Shown: in pieces, positions 53,466-59,286 of the stretch
How the letters are laid out: every line of letters starts with the position of its first letter
How positions within the stretch are numbered: the stretch's first letter is position 1
Origin: Spirulina sp. CS-785/01
Lineage (GTDB): Bacteria > Cyanobacteriota > Cyanobacteriia > Cyanobacteriales > Spirulinaceae
Assembly (NCBI RefSeq): GCF_028330525.1
Contig: NZ_JAQMSD010000124.1
Location: 1 to 60,361, forward strand
Direction of reading: 5' to 3'
DNA: 60,361 bases
Notes under the pieces: model-generated
Told to the model about the DNA's origin: nothing
What the model saw: the letters and a program-made list of their open reading frames with translations, nothing else
Databases searched by the model: none
Program-made: the position numbers and the translations under genes

Positions 53466-54131
53466 TTAATTTCTTGCCGATGCTTCCTTTGCTTTTGTCT
53501 CCCAGAGGGGTAAGTCTTCGGGGTAGTCGATGTCATTTAAGACGGGGAGGGTTGCGTAATCGCAACCTTCCGTTTTAGCTTTCTCTAAGGTAGTCGCAAA
53601 TACGGTAGATGTCCCCCACGCAACCCCGGTAAATAACCCCGGAATCATGCGACGTAACCCAATTAAATAATATCCCCCGTCCTCTGCTTCTCCTAGGACG
53701 AGATCAACGGTTTTTAATTGCTCAAAGGCTTGATTGAGGAGGTCTGCGCTAAGATCAGGGCAGTCTATCCCCATAATAACTACTCGTTCTATCCCTTGTG
53801 CAAAGGCTTGAGCAAAGGCGGTCTCTAATTTTTGGCCTAAATCTCCTTCTGTCTGGGGAGTATAACACCAATTTGCCCCCAACCAATCCTCCATTAATCC
53901 TTTATTCCCCCCCGCAAATTGGATTTCTACTTGGAGAGAGGGTTGAGTAAGCAACGGTGTTACCTGTCGCAAACTATGTTCCGTCATCTCCTGTTGTAAC
54001 TGTGCTGCACCGTCTTTCCCCAATGCGGGAATTAACCGGGTTTTTGTTTTCCCTGCTTCGGGATAACGGGTAAAGATAATTAGTTTGGTTGTTGGTTGTT
54101 GGTTGGTTGTTGTTTGTTGTTTGTGGTTCAT
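53466..54131 (-). CDS. DUF2064/TIGR04282-type glycosyltransferase-like protein
   Basis: A 221-residue nucleotide-diphospho-sugar transferase fold protein: IIFTRYPEAGKTKTRLIPAL near residues 18-37, VIMGIDCPDLSADLLNQAF near 118, and LGEAEDGGYYLIGLR near 146. This is the family often found in arsenosugar and other small gene clusters. The first 16 residues (MNHKQQTTTNQQPTT) are coded by TTGGTTG-type heptamers and are not part of the fold. ATG 54131 overlaps the kinase stop. Confidence 0.88.
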   Translation of the reverse strand: MNHKQQTTTNQQPTTKLIIFTRYPEAGKTKTRLIPALGKDGAAQLQQEMTEHSLRQVTPLLTQPSLQVEIQFAGGNKGLMEDWLGANWCYTPQTEGDLGQKLETAFAQAFAQGIERVVIMGIDCPDLSADLLNQAFEQLKTVDLVLGEAEDGGYYLIGLRRMIPGLFTGVAWGTSTVFATTLEKAKTEGCDYATLPVLNDIDYPEDLPLWETKAKEASARN

Positions 54132-54133
54132 CA

Positions 54134-54153
54134 CCCATTACCCATTACCCATT
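54134..54153 (-). repeat. CCCATTA heptamer array over a gene junction
   Basis: Nearly three copies of CCCATTA span the last codons of the histidine kinase (its GMGNG end) and border the start of the DUF2064 gene. The adjoining 54080-54125 is a second, TTGGTTG-like array that codes for the N-terminus of the DUF2064 protein. Confidence 0.88.
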
Positions 54154-55646
54154 CCATTATTAATCGGTAAAAGTACCTCAAAACAAGTCCCGACTCCCAC
54201 CTCACTGGACACTTTAATCTCTCCCTGATGTAAGTCCACCGCACGTTTTACAATAGATAAACCTAACCCCGTACCTGAAATTTCTCCCACATTTTTGGAC
54301 CGGTGGAAACATTCAAATAAACGTTCCTGATCTTCTACGGGAATTCCTATTCCGTGATCTTGTACCGTAAATTGAACCAACTCCCCTTCTTGACTCACTT
54401 TTAAGTCAATTTCTCCTTGCTCTGGCGAATATTTTATGGCATTAGACAATAAATTTGTCAAGATATGTCTTAATAATTTATCATCGAGGTTGATGGGTTG
54501 AAGCTCATTTAAAAATTGTAACTTAATGTGATACTTGTCTCCGGCAATTAATTGCACTTCCTCTACCAACTCTCGACAAAAATAAGATAAATCTAATTTA
54601 ACTGGATTAAACTCTAATTTTCCCGCTTCTGCACGGCCAATGACCAAGACATCTTCTAATAAATTGGTCATGTGTTCGGTACAGTGTTTAATCCGTTTTA
54701 AATGCTTGTCTCGCTTTTCTGGAGTCCATTGATTCGCAAAATTTTCTAGTAATTCAACGGACATGGAAATACTAGATAATGGATTGCGAAATTCATGGGA
54801 AGTCATGGATATAAAGCGGGATTTTAGCTCATTTAACTCTTTTTCCTTGGCTAATGCTTTATTCATTTCTGCTTCTGCGGCTTTTTTCTGGGTAATATCT
54901 CGACCTAAATAGACAAATACGGGTTGTCGAGAGTTGGCAATTTGAATTAAAGAATAGGAAAATTCAATGATTAAAGATTCTCCGTTTTTGGTGTGACAAG
55001 ATAATTCAATATTTTGGAATCCTTGCTGATACTGGGAAAGGTCAATGTTTGGGGAATAAAGAGAGAATAAAAATTCTTGATCTTGAATAATTTTACCAAT
55101 AAATTGCTCTAATAATTCGGCTTCTGAATATTTAAATAATTGTTGGGTGGTTTGATTGATGGTTTTTATTGTTCCAGATGGGGTTGTTACGAGTAACGCA
55201 TCTCCCATGGAGGTGAGAATTTGTTTAATATAATTTTCAGATTTCGATAAATGACTTAATAATAATTCTACTTCATTGGCACGCTGGACTAAAGATTGAC
55301 CAAGCTCCATTTCTTGGGTAACATCTGTGAATAAAATCAACAGATGTTGAGGATCAATTCGCTCAAAGGATAAATCAAAATAAATGGTTTTTTTATTTCC
55401 TAAAGTGCGCGTTACTCCTTTGAGTTCAAATTGTTCTCGTTTACCGCTTATAATATCCTGAACAATGCCATCAATTCCCACTAATTCGGGGAAAAATAAA
55501 CTGGCATTATCTCCGGTTTTAAGGTTTTCCTGATCGTCGGTAAATTGTTGGATTTTTGCCGATTTTTTGACGACGGTTAACTGTTCATTCACTACTAGAT
55601 ATTCTAGGGAATTGGGAATAAAGATTTGGGAAAATTGCATCACCAT
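54138..55646 (-). CDS. PAS-domain sensor histidine kinase
   Basis: A 502-residue soluble kinase. Residues 15-130 and 140-260 are PAS-like (ILTSMGDALLVTTPSGTIKT, FVYLGRDITQKKAAEAEMNK). A short coiled coil follows, then H284 in MTSHEFRNPLSSISM. The ATPase domain shows NLLSNAIKYSPEQGE near 405, DHGIGIPVEDQERLFECF near 445, and SGTGLGLSIVKRAV. No membrane helices. It is fourth in a minus-strand run with a GTPase and an OmpA-type protein. Its final residues are coded by a heptamer repeat. Confidence 0.92.
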   Translation of the reverse strand: MVMQFSQIFIPNSLEYLVVNEQLTVVKKSAKIQQFTDDQENLKTGDNASLFFPELVGIDGIVQDIISGKREQFELKGVTRTLGNKKTIYFDLSFERIDPQHLLILFTDVTQEMELGQSLVQRANEVELLLSHLSKSENYIKQILTSMGDALLVTTPSGTIKTINQTTQQLFKYSEAELLEQFIGKIIQDQEFLFSLYSPNIDLSQYQQGFQNIELSCHTKNGESLIIEFSYSLIQIANSRQPVFVYLGRDITQKKAAEAEMNKALAKEKELNELKSRFISMTSHEFRNPLSSISMSVELLENFANQWTPEKRDKHLKRIKHCTEHMTNLLEDVLVIGRAEAGKLEFNPVKLDLSYFCRELVEEVQLIAGDKYHIKLQFLNELQPINLDDKLLRHILTNLLSNAIKYSPEQGEIDLKVSQEGELVQFTVQDHGIGIPVEDQERLFECFHRSKNVGEISGTGLGLSIVKRAVDLHQGEIKVSSEVGVGTCFEVLLPINNGMGNG

Positions 55647-55690
55647 GATTGCTTCCCCCTAGAAGCGGTTTTCCAGTTTAATTATATTAA

Positions 55691-56215
55691 TTAATGATGC
55701 CAAATTTGATAGGCTAATTGTTCAAAGATGGGATCGACATTTTTTCCGGTTTTAGCGGAGGTAGAGAATGTTCCCACTAGAGCAGGATGAGAGAGTTGGA
55801 AGTGAGTTTGCAGATATGCCATTTCCTCACTATCGAGTAAATCTGCTTTATTAAATGCGACGGCCACGGCCCCTTGGGGGTTAATCTCTGTAAACTTGTG
55901 AATCTGCTCCTCTAGATGCTCTAGAGTCTCCTGACGAGTCACATCCCCTACGACTAAAACCCCATTGGCCCCCTGTAGGTAGGAGGGTGCGATCGCTTTA
56001 AATTTTGTTTGTCCTTCGATATCCCAGATCATTAACTTCATCTCTTGGGATTGCTGTTGAGCATCTTGTAACTCCAGCATCTTGCGAGAAATTTTCACTC
56101 CGACGGTTGAGAGATAGCGATCGCTAAATTGTCGCTCCACAAAACGACGGATCAAACTGGTTTTCCCCACTCCAAAATCACCCACCATACAAATTTTCTT
56201 AGAAATAACCGCCAT
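55691..56215 (-). CDS. Ras/Rab-like small GTPase
   Basis: A 174-residue GTPase with all G boxes: GDFGVGKTS (12-20), T37 in the LSTVGVKI switch, DIEGQ (65-69), NKAD (122-125) and SAK (153-155). The G3 box has DxxG followed by Gln, the hydrolysis residue of Ras proteins. It has no lipidation signal. Its stop is 9 bp from the ATG side of the OmpA-type gene's end, so the genes are cotranscribed. Bacterial GTPases of this kind often act with roadblock-fold regulators, and the upstream gene appears to carry one. Confidence 0.92.
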   Translation of the reverse strand: MAVISKKICMVGDFGVGKTSLIRRFVERQFSDRYLSTVGVKISRKMLELQDAQQQSQEMKLMIWDIEGQTKFKAIAPSYLQGANGVLVVGDVTRQETLEHLEEQIHKFTEINPQGAVAVAFNKADLLDSEEMAYLQTHFQLSHPALVGTFSTSAKTGKNVDPIFEQLAYQIWHH

Positions 56216-56224
56216 TACAATACT

Positions 56225-58456
56225 TTACTCGTCAGTTCCTTGTATTACCTCAAACCGCACCACACGACTTAACCAAAACGGACTCTCCGCAGGAATCGTA
56301 GGGGGAGATTGCGTCATCCCCTCCCCTTGCAGACGATCGCGGGAAATACCTTCTTGCTCGATCGCCCGTTGTACTGCTTGCGCACGACGCACGGCTAAGT
56401 TCTCATTGTACTCCTCTTCCCCACTGCGATCCGTGTGTCCGATCACCTGTAAACCCACTTGGGGATTTTCCTGCAAAAATTCCACTAGGGGTAAAATCTT
56501 ATTCTCTCGCTCTTGGGCCGCAATATCGGCGGAATTCGTATCAAAATAAATCCGGGCCTCGGTAGGAAACTCCTGATTATTCAGGGTAAATAACACCGAC
56601 TGCACCCCCGGAATTTGTTCAAACCCTTGGGCAATTTGCCGAGCGAGGGGTTGAGCCATTACCTTCCCCTCTACAATAACCCGATTTTCCCTTGGTTCGT
56701 AGTTAGCCGTAATCTCCACCCCTGTCATCTCATTAAACACCTGCTGCAACCGTTCCATTTCTGCAAGAATCGCTCCCCGATTGGGGGGAACTTGCACCGC
56801 CAACAGTTGGTTATTAAACTCCAGGGTAGGATGGGTCTCTTGGGCAATCTCTGCTGCTTGTTCCTTTAACTGAGCATTGGGCACTTTTCCCGTTAATTCT
56901 AGCTTTCCCCCCTGCACCTCCGCTTGAAAATCATAGACGGCCAATTCCGGGGTTTGCTCCAATGCGGCCAACACCTCCTCCTCTTGACGGTGGGCCACCT
57001 GCTGACGATGCCACACCATGCCCACAGGGAGTAAAATGAGCAAGGAGACCACTCCCCCCAAGACGAATAACCCTGTGGGGAAATGGGGACGTTTTTGGGG
57101 GACTGTAACCGGATGCTCTAATAACTCCCGTAATAACTCCTCAATGGCCGGGGGGAGGGTGCTGGGGTCCCCCTGATAGTCTTGGATGACCCGATCATCG
57201 TTATAGTTTAGCGTAATGGCGCTGAGGGTATCTTCTAGTTGGTCATAGAAACGGGTGGGGGGGTCTCCCTGAGTCACGGCGGCAATATAACAATAACCGG
57301 CCACCTCCATGACAATTTGGAAGTTTTCGTAGTCAATTTCCGTTAATTCCGAGGTATTTTCCGGTTGGATGGTGCATTCACTGGCGAAACTACGCATGGC
57401 CGTGAGCATCCCGGCCAGCATATCCCCTTCTAGGGCCGAATTCCCCGACTGTTGTACCTCGGCCATGACGAGGCCGGAATTTTTATGAATGAGAAACACC
57501 GCTTGCACCGTGAAGGGGAGCGACTCTTGGAGGATTAATTCGGCTTCGGATACCCCTTGCCATTGGGATTTTAACTTGCGATAAATCCCTTGCAAACTAA
57601 AGGCACTCTCCACTTGTTGATTAATGCGGGTGACGGTTTCCCCCATATATTTAGAAATAGTATGGCCAATGACGGGATAGAGGGCATCCACCATGGCATC
57701 CTTTTCTAAGCGCACCTGCTCGCTAATGGCCCGGCCCATGGCGGGGCCTAATGCTTGGCCCACTTCTTGGGGAGCGTTGCCCGTTTGCTGGGAGAGGGCT
57801 AGGGTGAGGGCTTCGGCCAGGGCCCGACTCATGGCGATTTTATCCTGTTTTGTGCCTTGCGCGATCGCAACATCCATAATCTGCCCCAACATTTCCCCCA
57901 CCGCTTGGGGAGACTGGCGAATTTTATGTTGGAGCAACATTAAAAACATCGGTTCTAGCACTTGGGCCAACCGTTGGGGGTTGTGGAGTTCAGCTTCGAG
58001 GTGGTGCAGTTTGTCGGCCACCTCTTGACTAACGGTAGTGGCATCCGCATCCAGTAAATCTAGAAGTAATTCCCGCAACTTTTCCCCCGTTTCTGGGCTT
58101 TCTGAGCGAGGGGCAGAGCCTTGGGGGGGAATTGTCGTTTTAGGGGGCGGAGGGGGCTTACTGGGACGCTCTGCCCCCTTGGAGGATTTCGAGGAGGTGG
58201 TCTGCCCTGGCTTTTTCGGGGGAGGAGGTGGCGGTAGAGGACGACGGGGGGGCGACGGGTTAGCGGCGTTTTCTTGGGGGGGAGGAGACGGTGGGGGGGA
58301 CTCCTCCACAATATTTAGATCATCTAACAGATCGACTAAGCCCTCAAGGGAGTCAAGACCTTGAGGGCTAGACGGGGTAGGGTTAGACTGCACCTCCGCT
58401 TGGGACAGATCAGGACGAGGTACAGAATTTTGAGAAGAAATGGGCATAATTGCCAT
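56225..58456 (-). CDS. OmpA-anchored membrane protein with roadblock-like cytoplasmic region
   Basis: A 743-residue protein built in modules. Residues 1-120 are Pro-rich and disordered. Residues 120-300 are helical (IGHTISKYMGETVTRINQQV, then GVSEAELILQESLPF). Residues 300-400 begin AVFLIHKNSGLVMAEVQ and look like a roadblock/longin sensor. A single membrane helix is at about 460-482. Next come two BON-like repeats (LTGKVPNAQLKEQAAEIAQE and VEGKVMAQPLARQIAQGFEQ). The last 110 residues are an OmpA domain with VIGHTDRSGEEEYNENLAVR for peptidoglycan binding. It links the cell wall to the cytoplasm. ATG 58456 is chosen; ATG 58447 is possible. Confidence 0.82.
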   Translation of the reverse strand: MAIMPISSQNSVPRPDLSQAEVQSNPTPSSPQGLDSLEGLVDLLDDLNIVEESPPPSPPPQENAANPSPPRRPLPPPPPPKKPGQTTSSKSSKGAERPSKPPPPPKTTIPPQGSAPRSESPETGEKLRELLLDLLDADATTVSQEVADKLHHLEAELHNPQRLAQVLEPMFLMLLQHKIRQSPQAVGEMLGQIMDVAIAQGTKQDKIAMSRALAEALTLALSQQTGNAPQEVGQALGPAMGRAISEQVRLEKDAMVDALYPVIGHTISKYMGETVTRINQQVESAFSLQGIYRKLKSQWQGVSEAELILQESLPFTVQAVFLIHKNSGLVMAEVQQSGNSALEGDMLAGMLTAMRSFASECTIQPENTSELTEIDYENFQIVMEVAGYCYIAAVTQGDPPTRFYDQLEDTLSAITLNYNDDRVIQDYQGDPSTLPPAIEELLRELLEHPVTVPQKRPHFPTGLFVLGGVVSLLILLPVGMVWHRQQVAHRQEEEVLAALEQTPELAVYDFQAEVQGGKLELTGKVPNAQLKEQAAEIAQETHPTLEFNNQLLAVQVPPNRGAILAEMERLQQVFNEMTGVEITANYEPRENRVIVEGKVMAQPLARQIAQGFEQIPGVQSVLFTLNNQEFPTEARIYFDTNSADIAAQERENKILPLVEFLQENPQVGLQVIGHTDRSGEEEYNENLAVRRAQAVQRAIEQEGISRDRLQGEGMTQSPPTIPAESPFWLSRVVRFEVIQGTDE

Positions 58457-58572
58457 CCGTTGAACCAATCCGTTGGCAGATGTAATTAGCGAAAACTCCG
58501 GAATCTAGACGAACCCAGGACGGTGAGTTGGTCTGGGTGAAAATCCGTTTACTCATCACCCTGATGTTCGGC

Positions 58573-59286
58573 CTACTCTTTCATTATGCCGGATGCTGAA
58601 TTGGATTCTGGGGAGTCGGAGTCATCCTCCTCGTCTTGGTTTTCCTCTTCATTGTCTGGCAGTAAGAATTCGGCCTGTAGGCGACTTTCCATGGCTTCCC
58701 GGAGATCAGGGACAAATTCGGTTCCCTTGACCTTAATACAGAGTTCAAAGAGAACTTCCGCGAGATCAGCCCGAGAGACCTTACTTTCCCTGAGATTGCT
58801 AAAACACTTCTCAAGTTCCTCAAAGATTCTAGTTTTTAGGGTTTGGGTCTCGGTTTGAAAGGTTTCTTGGGTTTCGGTGAGTTCCTCCCGCAATGCGTGG
58901 GTTTTGTTGTTGAGGTTTTTATTAAATGTGTCGAGGGTGGTGGAGTATTTTTGCTGGAATTGTTCTATGCGTTGCCAGAGTTTGGTGTTTTCCTCGTGGG
59001 TGGTGAGGCTGAGGTATTTGAGTTTTTTCTCTAATGCGTCGGCCATGCCTTGTACTTCCCCGTTGAGGGAGCGTTCTAGGGTGGTGAGGGAATGTTCCAT
59101 GGCATCGAGGCGATCGCGCACTTCCTGCTGAAGTTGCTCGAAGTTAGTCCCCAAGGTTTCTAACTCGTTTTCGGCCTCCTCAAAGCGTTCTTCATAGGTT
59201 CGGAGTTGAGTCCCGAAAAGAATTTCCCGGATTTGCTCAACGTTGCCTAGACGTTCGCGCATTTCTTTGCGGTTCAGTTCAGCCAT
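58573..59286 (-). CDS. Coiled-coil protein of unknown function
   Basis: A 237-residue, highly charged coiled-coil protein: MAELNRKEMRERLGNVEQIR at the start, long heptads to residue 170, then a compact part (SKVSRADLAEVLFELCIKVK) and an acidic tail rich in Glu, Asp and Ser. No membrane segments. First gene of the minus-strand run before the OmpA-type protein, so probably a cytoplasmic partner of that complex. Confidence 0.75.
   Translation of the reverse strand: MAELNRKEMRERLGNVEQIREILFGTQLRTYEERFEEAENELETLGTNFEQLQQEVRDRLDAMEHSLTTLERSLNGEVQGMADALEKKLKYLSLTTHEENTKLWQRIEQFQQKYSTTLDTFNKNLNNKTHALREELTETQETFQTETQTLKTRIFEELEKCFSNLRESKVSRADLAEVLFELCIKVKGTEFVPDLREAMESRLQAEFLLPDNEEENQDEEDDSDSPESNSASGIMKE

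Follow-up and report, generated by a model that had tools for sequence, protein, structure and literature searches.

How might a protein held in the cell wall be connected to a Ras-like GTPase and to a soluble histidine kinase encoded in the same run of genes? The question is raised by a locus in the window, i.e. the whole stretch of 60,361 nucleotides analysed here (Spirulina sp. CS-785/01, contig NZ_JAQMSD010000124.1, forward-strand positions 1-60,361). A sequence-only reading had reported a minus-strand run of four genes, and all four ORFs were found in place on that strand, on which all features of the set described below also lie: a coiled-coil protein as the first gene of the set (58573..59286; 237 aa), a one-helix OmpA protein (56225..58456; 743 aa from the ATG at 58456, the length given before), a Ras-like GTPase (55691..56215; 174 aa) and a soluble PAS histidine kinase (54138..55646; 502 aa). 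The GTPase gene follows the OmpA gene after 9 bp, as had been claimed. The ORF of the OmpA protein opens at TTG 58468 (56225-58468; 747 aa), and its residues are counted from this codon. The coiled-coil ORF gave weak Pfam matches to coiled-coil families, and hydropathy revealed no transmembrane segment in the kinase, the GTPase or the coiled coil. A fifth gene in the span described earlier, TIGR04282/DUF2064 (53466-54134), adjoins the set in 6/80 related loci (L035-L040; five titled Spirulina or Spirulinaceae, one ‘Cyanobacteria bacterium SBLK’) and was rejected as a core part because it is present in only these six. Promoter-like matches numbered 11 vs 8.1 in shuffled sequences and terminator-like matches 11 vs 8.9; neither was used as evidence.

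Most parts of the wall-anchored protein could be confirmed. Its Pro-rich front covers approximately residues 55-126 (58091..58306), as read from the translation, and its transmembrane helix at residues 467-485 (57014..57070), with a hydropathy of 2.6 over 19 residues, is the sole segment above 1.6. The first of the two BON-like repeats claimed is a BON domain over the Pfam cut-off (residues 496-545; 56834..56983; E 4e-9). The second, at approximately residues 575-631 (56576..56746), was placed from the homologue L071 and gave no Pfam match in the window sequence itself; among six homologues, L071 passes the cut-off (34 bits), three fall below it and two are without a match, and the hhalign alignment of this domain to the first BON domain was weak. 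The protein ends, as proposed, in an OmpA-like peptidoglycan-binding domain (residues 641-720; 56309..56548; Pfam OmpA E 4e-14), in which GHTD and NENLAVRRAQAV align with Omp38 (3td3), the RA..V positions included. We take the OmpA-family Asp and Arg at the GHTD and NENLAVRRAQAV positions to be the residues that hold diaminopimelate.

A roadblock-like region had been placed at residues 300-400, with fold prediction as its test. The prediction came out as a longin/roadblock-type fold, although nearer to longin and at residues 320-455 (57104..57511; AlphaFold2, Foldseek and VIA-align). Residues 296-460 modelled alone in AlphaFold2 reached a pLDDT of 77.7 and a longer model of the protein 63.1. 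The domain alone matched Sec22b with a Z of 14.8 and an rmsd of 2.4 Å over 126 aligned residues (VIA-align), while the longer model matched longin structures at up to Z 14.2 and roadblock structures at up to Z 10.4. For the domain alone, the best 50 VIA-align matches were titled longin proteins or complexes containing longin-type chains, among these AP, COPI, TRAPP, CPLANE and KICSTOR, and no roadblock structure was found in these 50. The predicted elements (E25-33 E39-44 H53-72 E81-85 E88-95 E98-105 H110-127 H145-156) follow the longin topology b-b-a-b-b-b-a-a over a span of approximately 130 residues. On these models, residues 320-455 are predicted to adopt a longin fold, the roadblock fold being the more distant of the two. 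The longin fold is used by eukaryotes for the control of Rab GTPases. Conservation within the domain is highest, for stretches of ten residues, at 352-361 (AGMLTAMRSF in the window); by element, strand b1 equals the helix that contains this stretch (0.79 and 0.77).

An alternative explanation is that the longin-like fold is a remote resemblance of the PAS/GAF/profilin type with no GTPase role, and that the genes are adjacent for other reasons. The searches at the level of sequence, which revealed no link to longin or roadblock families, are consistent with this: Pfam returned a single, unconvincing family for the roadblock-like region of the window protein (E 0.034), no roadblock or longin family was among the 25 listed of 99 families weakly matched by 61 sequences, and a 72-row profile gave nothing meaningful against solved chains (best E 0.24). 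Within the window's genome, Pfam Longin (PF13774) gave only an unrelated match elsewhere (E 1.45) and Robl_LC7 (PF03259) 0 matches at E<=1, and a canonical MglB-type roadblock partner was rejected; as a control, Robl_LC7 matched in 9/14 genomes, over the cut-off in three. Longins have also been counted in a wide PAS/GAF superfamily by a review (PMC4917890, seen in part). However, the best 50 structural matches are all titled as longin proteins or longin-containing complexes, and the domain and its GTPase are kept together in both cyanobacteria and alphaproteobacteria, so that we consider a mere resemblance very unlikely.

The GTPase itself is complete, as reported, with all of G1-G5 (GDFGVGKTS, STVGVK, WDIEGQ, NKAD and TSAKTG), a Pfam Ras match (E 2.5e-31), Rabs as its best-matching solved structures and, at 174 aa, a size below the 240 aa bound for small GTPases. 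The parallel drawn with MglA had to be corrected. MglA is described as lacking the Asp of G3 (PMC4316618, in part), whereas the WDIEGQ of the window GTPase keeps both Asp and Gln; the retained Asp makes it, judged by sequence, a Rup-type and not an MglA-type GTPase, and the MglA assignment was rejected. Rup GTPases have been described as the prokaryotic proteins nearest to Ras/Rab/Ran/Rho. The G3 Gln is kept in 10 of 88 relatives, which represent 86 distinct matches, and missing in the other 78, where it is replaced by H (45), S (20), E (7), R (3), N, G or C (1 each).

Is the association of these genes a peculiarity of one strain? A gene order special to Spirulina sp. CS-785/01 was rejected by its conservation across 80 related loci, and all four genes occur together in 55 of them; the arrangement is thus not due to chance. 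The gene immediately before longin-OmpA is a coiled-coil homologue in 70/80 loci and likewise in Mesorhizobium/Rhizobium (L116 and L117), where the phmmer E-values were 1.1e-9 and 6e-12, computed against few ORFs per locus. The Rup gene stands behind the longin gene on the same strand within 1.5 kb in 70/80 loci, often at a spacing of 2 bp. Of 291 genomes from the phylum, 33 encode Rup, 33 longin and 32 both, and for 34/38 Rups a same-strand longin was located no more than 6 kb upstream; 4/38 Rups were without a longin nearby and 5/39 longins without a Rup (four of the five examined: L125-L127, L130). Of 72,556 plasmid records, longin was matched in four and Rup in exactly those four. One scan for relatives on viral contigs found none. 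The sample covered Cyanobacteria and, through plasmids, alphaproteobacteria; Chloroflexi, Bacteroidetes, gammaproteobacteria and Sorangium, which are included among the Rup hosts named in 2014 (PMC4316618, in part), lie outside it.

Downstream of the GTPase, the sequence-only reading's soluble PAS kinase was borne out, with PAS_9, HisKA and HATPase_c behind a PAS-like N-terminus. The stretch after the N-terminal domain (residues 112-130; 55257..55313) carries Gln117 and Gln121, each present in 63/64 aligned outputs, and the Gln121 position is also found in Mesorhizobium, Rhizobium and four free-standing domains. Overall, the output varies, while the PAS-like N-terminus, with a conserved Gln at its end, is usually kept: this common module precedes a kinase or a cyclase depending on the locus, a class III cyclase in the second copy of the set in the window's genome and likewise a cyclase in Mesorhizobium, where the four-gene order is identical, and a GGDEF domain occurs in 1/62 outputs scanned. 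In 4/5 divergent loci Rup is followed by a free-standing domain of similar kind, recognised by alignment and missed by the module profile. A recognised module was absent in 10/70 loci with an adjacent Rup, two of which end just there.

The conserved Gln also suggests that the control could run the other way, the output protein regulating the GTPase by supplying this residue in trans as a GAP residue, as proposed by Wuichet & Søgaard-Andersen (PMC4316618, in part), with the longin domain as a membrane tether only. This would fit the retention of the Gln121 position across kinase, cyclase and free-standing forms, the loss of the GTPase's own G3 Gln in most relatives (78/88) and the three loci examined (L124, L128 and L129), out of four in which Rup has no nearby longin, where Rup and output module remain together. 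However, the window GTPase and 10/88 relatives have a G3 Gln of their own, and since the window keeps the partner Gln beside it, the latter is not simply a replacement; the longin domain, moreover, is itself well conserved, beyond its anchor. We judge this explanation to be distinctly unlikely.

We instead favour, as fairly probable, a reading of the Group 1 Rup set in which a longin platform anchored in the wall serves as the dock, and perhaps the regulator, of a Rab-like switch acting through the PAS/Gln module. The longin-OmpA protein would be a type II membrane protein whose periplasmic OmpA end holds peptidoglycan and whose longin domain lies just inside the membrane. From their linkage, the longin domain is the likely binding partner of the Rup GTPase encoded directly behind it; it would dock the GTPase at the membrane and perhaps set its nucleotide state through a putative GEF or GAP activity, by analogy with MglB on MglA and with TRAPP, Mon1-Ccz1 and Fuzzy-Inturned on Rabs. 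The GTPase may then act on the PAS-like module with the conserved Gln in the next gene, which would drive the histidine kinase here and the class III cyclase in the genome's second copy. Through its wall contact the OmpA part may sense load or, as the sequence-only reading proposed, envelope stress. Alternatively, the contact could only mark a place: the wall-bound protein would then be no stress sensor but a spatial landmark (pole, septum or curvature) for placing the GTPase, much as in the polarity of MglA/MglB. Many named hosts of related loci belong to what we take to be filamentous genera, which counts for such a landmark. Front-rear polarity in Myxococcus, which is set by a roadblock protein and a Ras-like GTPase (PMC9481161, in part), points the same way, but the kinase and cyclase outputs suggest general signalling, and we regard the landmark as rather unlikely.

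If the longin platform is real, its implications extend beyond this locus. Because the same longin-Rup pair occurs in alphaproteobacteria, the partnership of longins and Rabs in eukaryotes might have its counterpart or source in bacteria, and not solely in archaea. A longin partner would also fill a gap left by the 2014 survey, in the available part of which no Rup is coupled to MglB (PMC4316618), and would put the GTPase switch on the wall anchor itself. It touches on the proposal that roadblock/longin regulators arose in archaea (PMC10933270, in part), and with it the use of longin platforms on Rab-like switches by bacteria becomes testable. We still hold it to be quite doubtful that genuine longin-domain regulators, anchored in the cell wall, act on Rab-like GTPases in bacteria.

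The composition of the locus, thought to be undescribed, is in print: Wuichet & Søgaard-Andersen catalogued it in 2014 as the ‘Group 1 Rup’ neighbourhood, a group defined by tree topology, taxonomy and neighbourhood (PMC4316618, in part). Both have a coiled coil, an unknown domain with a helix and OmpA, a Rup and an output with an invariant N-terminal Gln, whose counterpart here is Gln117 or Gln121. They differ in that the G3 Gln, reported missing in Group 1, is present in the window, and that the typical Group 1 outputs are histidine kinases or c-di-GMP, whereas a class III cyclase takes this place in the second copy of the window's genome. In the same source, as far as its available text goes, the OmpA protein carries a ‘domain of unknown function’ to which no fold is assigned, and an MglB gene lies beside no Rup; what is new here is the longin fold predicted for that domain from structural models. 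Among the literature matches listed, PMC4316618 included, none mentions a longin domain for this family in the parts available; PMC4316618 is the one that deals with Rup systems as such, while Rup is mentioned in passing in PMC4915359, PMC4736243 and PMC13015309. A 2016 review has ‘Longin/Roadblock’, as one class, present in Bacteria and also names Lokiarchaeum as the first prokaryote in which longin domains were discovered (PMC4917890, in part). Asgard archaea are another prokaryotic case of small GTPases combined with longin or roadblock domains (PMC10933270 and PMC4917890, in part), but some of these domains are fused to the GTPase, and the available text mentions no OmpA anchor or two-component output. 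The actinobacterial conservon (CvnA-D) also unites a GTPase, a roadblock-type partner and a histidine kinase in one operon; its GTPase is, however, of MglA type and its kinase a membrane protein, whereas here it is the longin protein that crosses the membrane and the kinase that is soluble. In the MglA-MglB systems of Myxococcus and Thermus, a Ras-like GTPase is similarly coupled to a partner of the roadblock/longin superfamily, yet MglB is a free roadblock protein, and the longin-like partner here forms one protein with a wall anchor. Finally, TRAPP, Mon1-Ccz1 and Fuzzy-Inturned differ from the window protein by its wall anchoring and show no detectable sequence similarity to it, but they share with it a longin fold, here a predicted one, beside a Rab-like GTPase, and entries for eukaryotic longin Rab platforms occur among the fold matches of the window domain.

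The coiled coil, OmpA protein, Ras-like GTPase and histidine kinase genes reported by the sequence-only reading were confirmed as a row on the minus strand (59286 to 54138), which encodes, in this order, a coiled coil of 237 aa, an OmpA protein of 743 aa (747 aa from the TTG start used for residue numbers here), a GTPase of 174 aa starting 9 bp behind the OmpA protein gene, and a kinase of 502 aa with no transmembrane segment by hydropathy. From its Pro-rich front, the OmpA protein runs through helical and globular parts to a single transmembrane helix at residue 467, followed by a BON domain, a second, BON-like part and an OmpA end, which aligns with Omp38 at the positions that hold peptidoglycan. 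Its OmpA domain is also matched by a C-terminal stretch of PDB 7f4v chain aB (photosystem I PsaB). One scan of genome contigs gave 289 relatives, and 80 loci were kept. A fifth gene (TIGR04282/DUF2064; 53466-54134), 3 bp behind the kinase, is linked to the four-gene set in six of these 80 loci (L035-L040).

The globular part had no useful sequence match. Its structure was modelled with AlphaFold2. A first model of residues 130-446, built with 60 homologues left from the 80 loci after redundancy and length filters, had a mean pLDDT of 63.1; the helical half scored low, and nine of the final 13 ten-residue blocks reached 74-90. Foldseek matched it best to longin domains (Ykt6, Vamp7), and also to AP sigma, TRAPP and Rag/Ragulator proteins. 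In VIA-align, which only re-ranks Foldseek matches, Sec22b reached Z 14.2 (2.3 Å, 118 residues aligned) and roadblock proteins, including MglB of the MglA complex, Z 10.2-10.4; the roadblock-like region proposed earlier was nearly right, but longins are nearer. Residues 296-460 alone, with 71 homologues, gave a better model (pLDDT 77.7, pTM 0.72), with Ykt6 at 7e-5 and Sec22b at a target TM-score of 0.78 in Foldseek, and Sec22b at Z 14.8 in VIA-align (rmsd 2.4 Å, 126/127 residues). By title, the 50 VIA-align matches listed are longin SNAREs, one archaeal longin, or entries for TRAPP, AP, COPI, CPLANE, Lst4 and KICSTOR-GATOR, in which the chains matched are of the longin type. The predicted order of two strands, helix, three strands and two helices is the longin topology, and we consider the domain a predicted longin fold.

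The linkage of this longin-OmpA protein to the GTPase, of the Rab/Ras-like class Rup, is conserved. In 70 of the 80 loci a coiled coil lies immediately upstream of the longin gene (three of the other ten sit close to where the stored sequence stops), and in 70 a Rup follows the longin gene on the same strand within 1.5 kb (two of the other ten likewise); all four genes occur together in 55. A recognised output module (the PAS-like N-terminus of the enzyme encoded after Rup) was counted in 60/80, a partly circular figure because the profile was built from those same loci. An earlier count had found the GTPase in the 1.5-kb flank of 28 of 30 loci, the window's own included; in L015, one of the two misses, it lies further along, past an inserted kinase. 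That stretch (L131, 134-10141) holds a single Rup flanked by three module-bearing ORFs (507, 698 and 851 aa), of which one separates Rup from the longin gene. The copy titled Candidatus Gracilibacteria (L108) is of cyanobacterial type (54% identity), and its contig is perhaps mis-binned.

Across 291 genomes drawn evenly from the window's phylum, with cut-offs chosen in the present analysis (Rup E<=1e-25, longin E<=1e-5), Rup was found in 33 genomes, longin in 33 and both in 32 (hypergeometric 2e-40, ignoring relatedness of genomes), and 34 of 38 Rups had a same-strand longin within the 6 kb upstream. The exceptions are a genome with Rup but no longin (G149), another with longin but no Rup (G232), Rups located away from a longin in G123, G097 and G086, and five longins (of 39) that have no Rup nearby, including L125, L126, L127 and L130. 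L125 (3212-6820), L126 (4553-8194) and L130 (4417-8028) are long longin-OmpA paralogues of 1202-1213 aa with no Rup in the 11-kb stretch. Of 72,556 plasmid records, four carry the longin domain, and these are also the four that carry Rup: one from Nostoc, two from Rhizobium and one from Mesorhizobium. Mesorhizobium WSM1497 carries a coiled coil, OmpA protein, 'Rab family GTPase' and class III cyclase in this order, shared by the ORFs of Rhizobium 007, and the rhizobial longin domains are 28-29% identical to the window's.

What follows Rup is exchanged between loci. In the window kinase, a PAS-like domain precedes a segment containing Gln117 and Gln121; each of these glutamines is found in 63 of the 64 proteins aligned. 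A second copy of the set in the same genome (another contig, L115, 2264-8626) encodes a longin-OmpA protein of 1263 aa, a Rup and an output of 674 aa, in which the window kinase's N-terminus is joined to PAS, GAF and, at the end, a class III adenylate/guanylate cyclase in place of a kinase. Among 66 outputs (first downstream ORF of at least 200 aa within 700 bp, omitting 16 loci judged redundant), Pfam on 62 gave HisKA in 38, HATPase_c in 36, class III cyclase in nine and GGDEF in one. The output-module profile also matched seven loci not used to build it (L115 4.5e-48, L116 6e-4, L117 2e-4, L118 4.8e-62, L124 1.3e-32, L128 1.4e-51, L129 3.2e-33; E-values for a small set of downstream ORFs) and had no match in L119-L123 and L132. 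L119-L123 form a divergent cyanobacterial group whose longin-OmpA proteins are shorter (589-604 aa). Behind Rup, four of these five loci (L119, L120, L122, L123) have a free-standing domain of ~130 residues, which the profile missed and which was identified by aligning it with the N-terminus of the Mesorhizobium output; Gln121 is present in 15 of the 16 sequences so aligned, the sixteenth (L129) being cut before that position, and Gln117 in 11, with Ser in the four free-standing domains. As the module stays with Rups that lack a nearby longin (all three examined of four: L124, L128, L129), the PAS/Gln module appears to be what the GTPase talks to.

The most likely route leads from a wall anchor and longin platform to the GTPase, the PAS/Gln module and the kinase. 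The anchor, helix and longin platform would keep the GTPase at the inner membrane, and the GTPase would act on the module and thereby on the kinase. By analogy with roadblock/longin complexes, the GTPase-facing side of the longin domain would be the helix bearing residues 352-361, the domain's most conserved run of ten; per whole element, strand b1 is equally conserved (0.79 versus 0.77 for this helix, domain mean 0.61). The analysis shows the gene content and order, the predicted fold, the joint occurrence of longin and Rup and the exchange of outputs. We infer this membrane topology and direction; the platform may bind the GTPase and might act as its GEF or GAP, and the OmpA part could conceivably act as a sensor.

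The sequence-only reading took this composition to be undescribed. It belongs to a kind catalogued in 2014 by Wuichet & Søgaard-Andersen (PMC4316618) and is therefore already known, as a prediction. That paper reports no Rup gene coupled to MglB, gives one Nostoc punctiforme Rup gene as transcribed and states that no Rup member had by then been characterised by experiment; among the literature matches listed, three other papers mention Rup in passing and none studies it. Since a 2016 review lists a lumped 'Longin/Roadblock' class as present in Bacteria (PMC4917890), our claim is narrowed to a longin-type domain in a Rup partner; what is new and of interest is this predicted domain. The same 2014 text likens the Rup neighbourhood, as a proposal, to the actinobacterial conservon signalling system. 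It also describes Group 1 Rup as lacking the G3 Gln (PMC4316618), whereas the window GTPase has Gln there; over 88 matches (86 distinct), this position is His in 45, Ser in 20, Gln in 10, Glu in seven, Arg in three, and Asn, Gly and Cys in one each. Because the window's output retains its partner Gln despite the GTPase's own G3 Gln, the partner Gln is not merely a stand-in.
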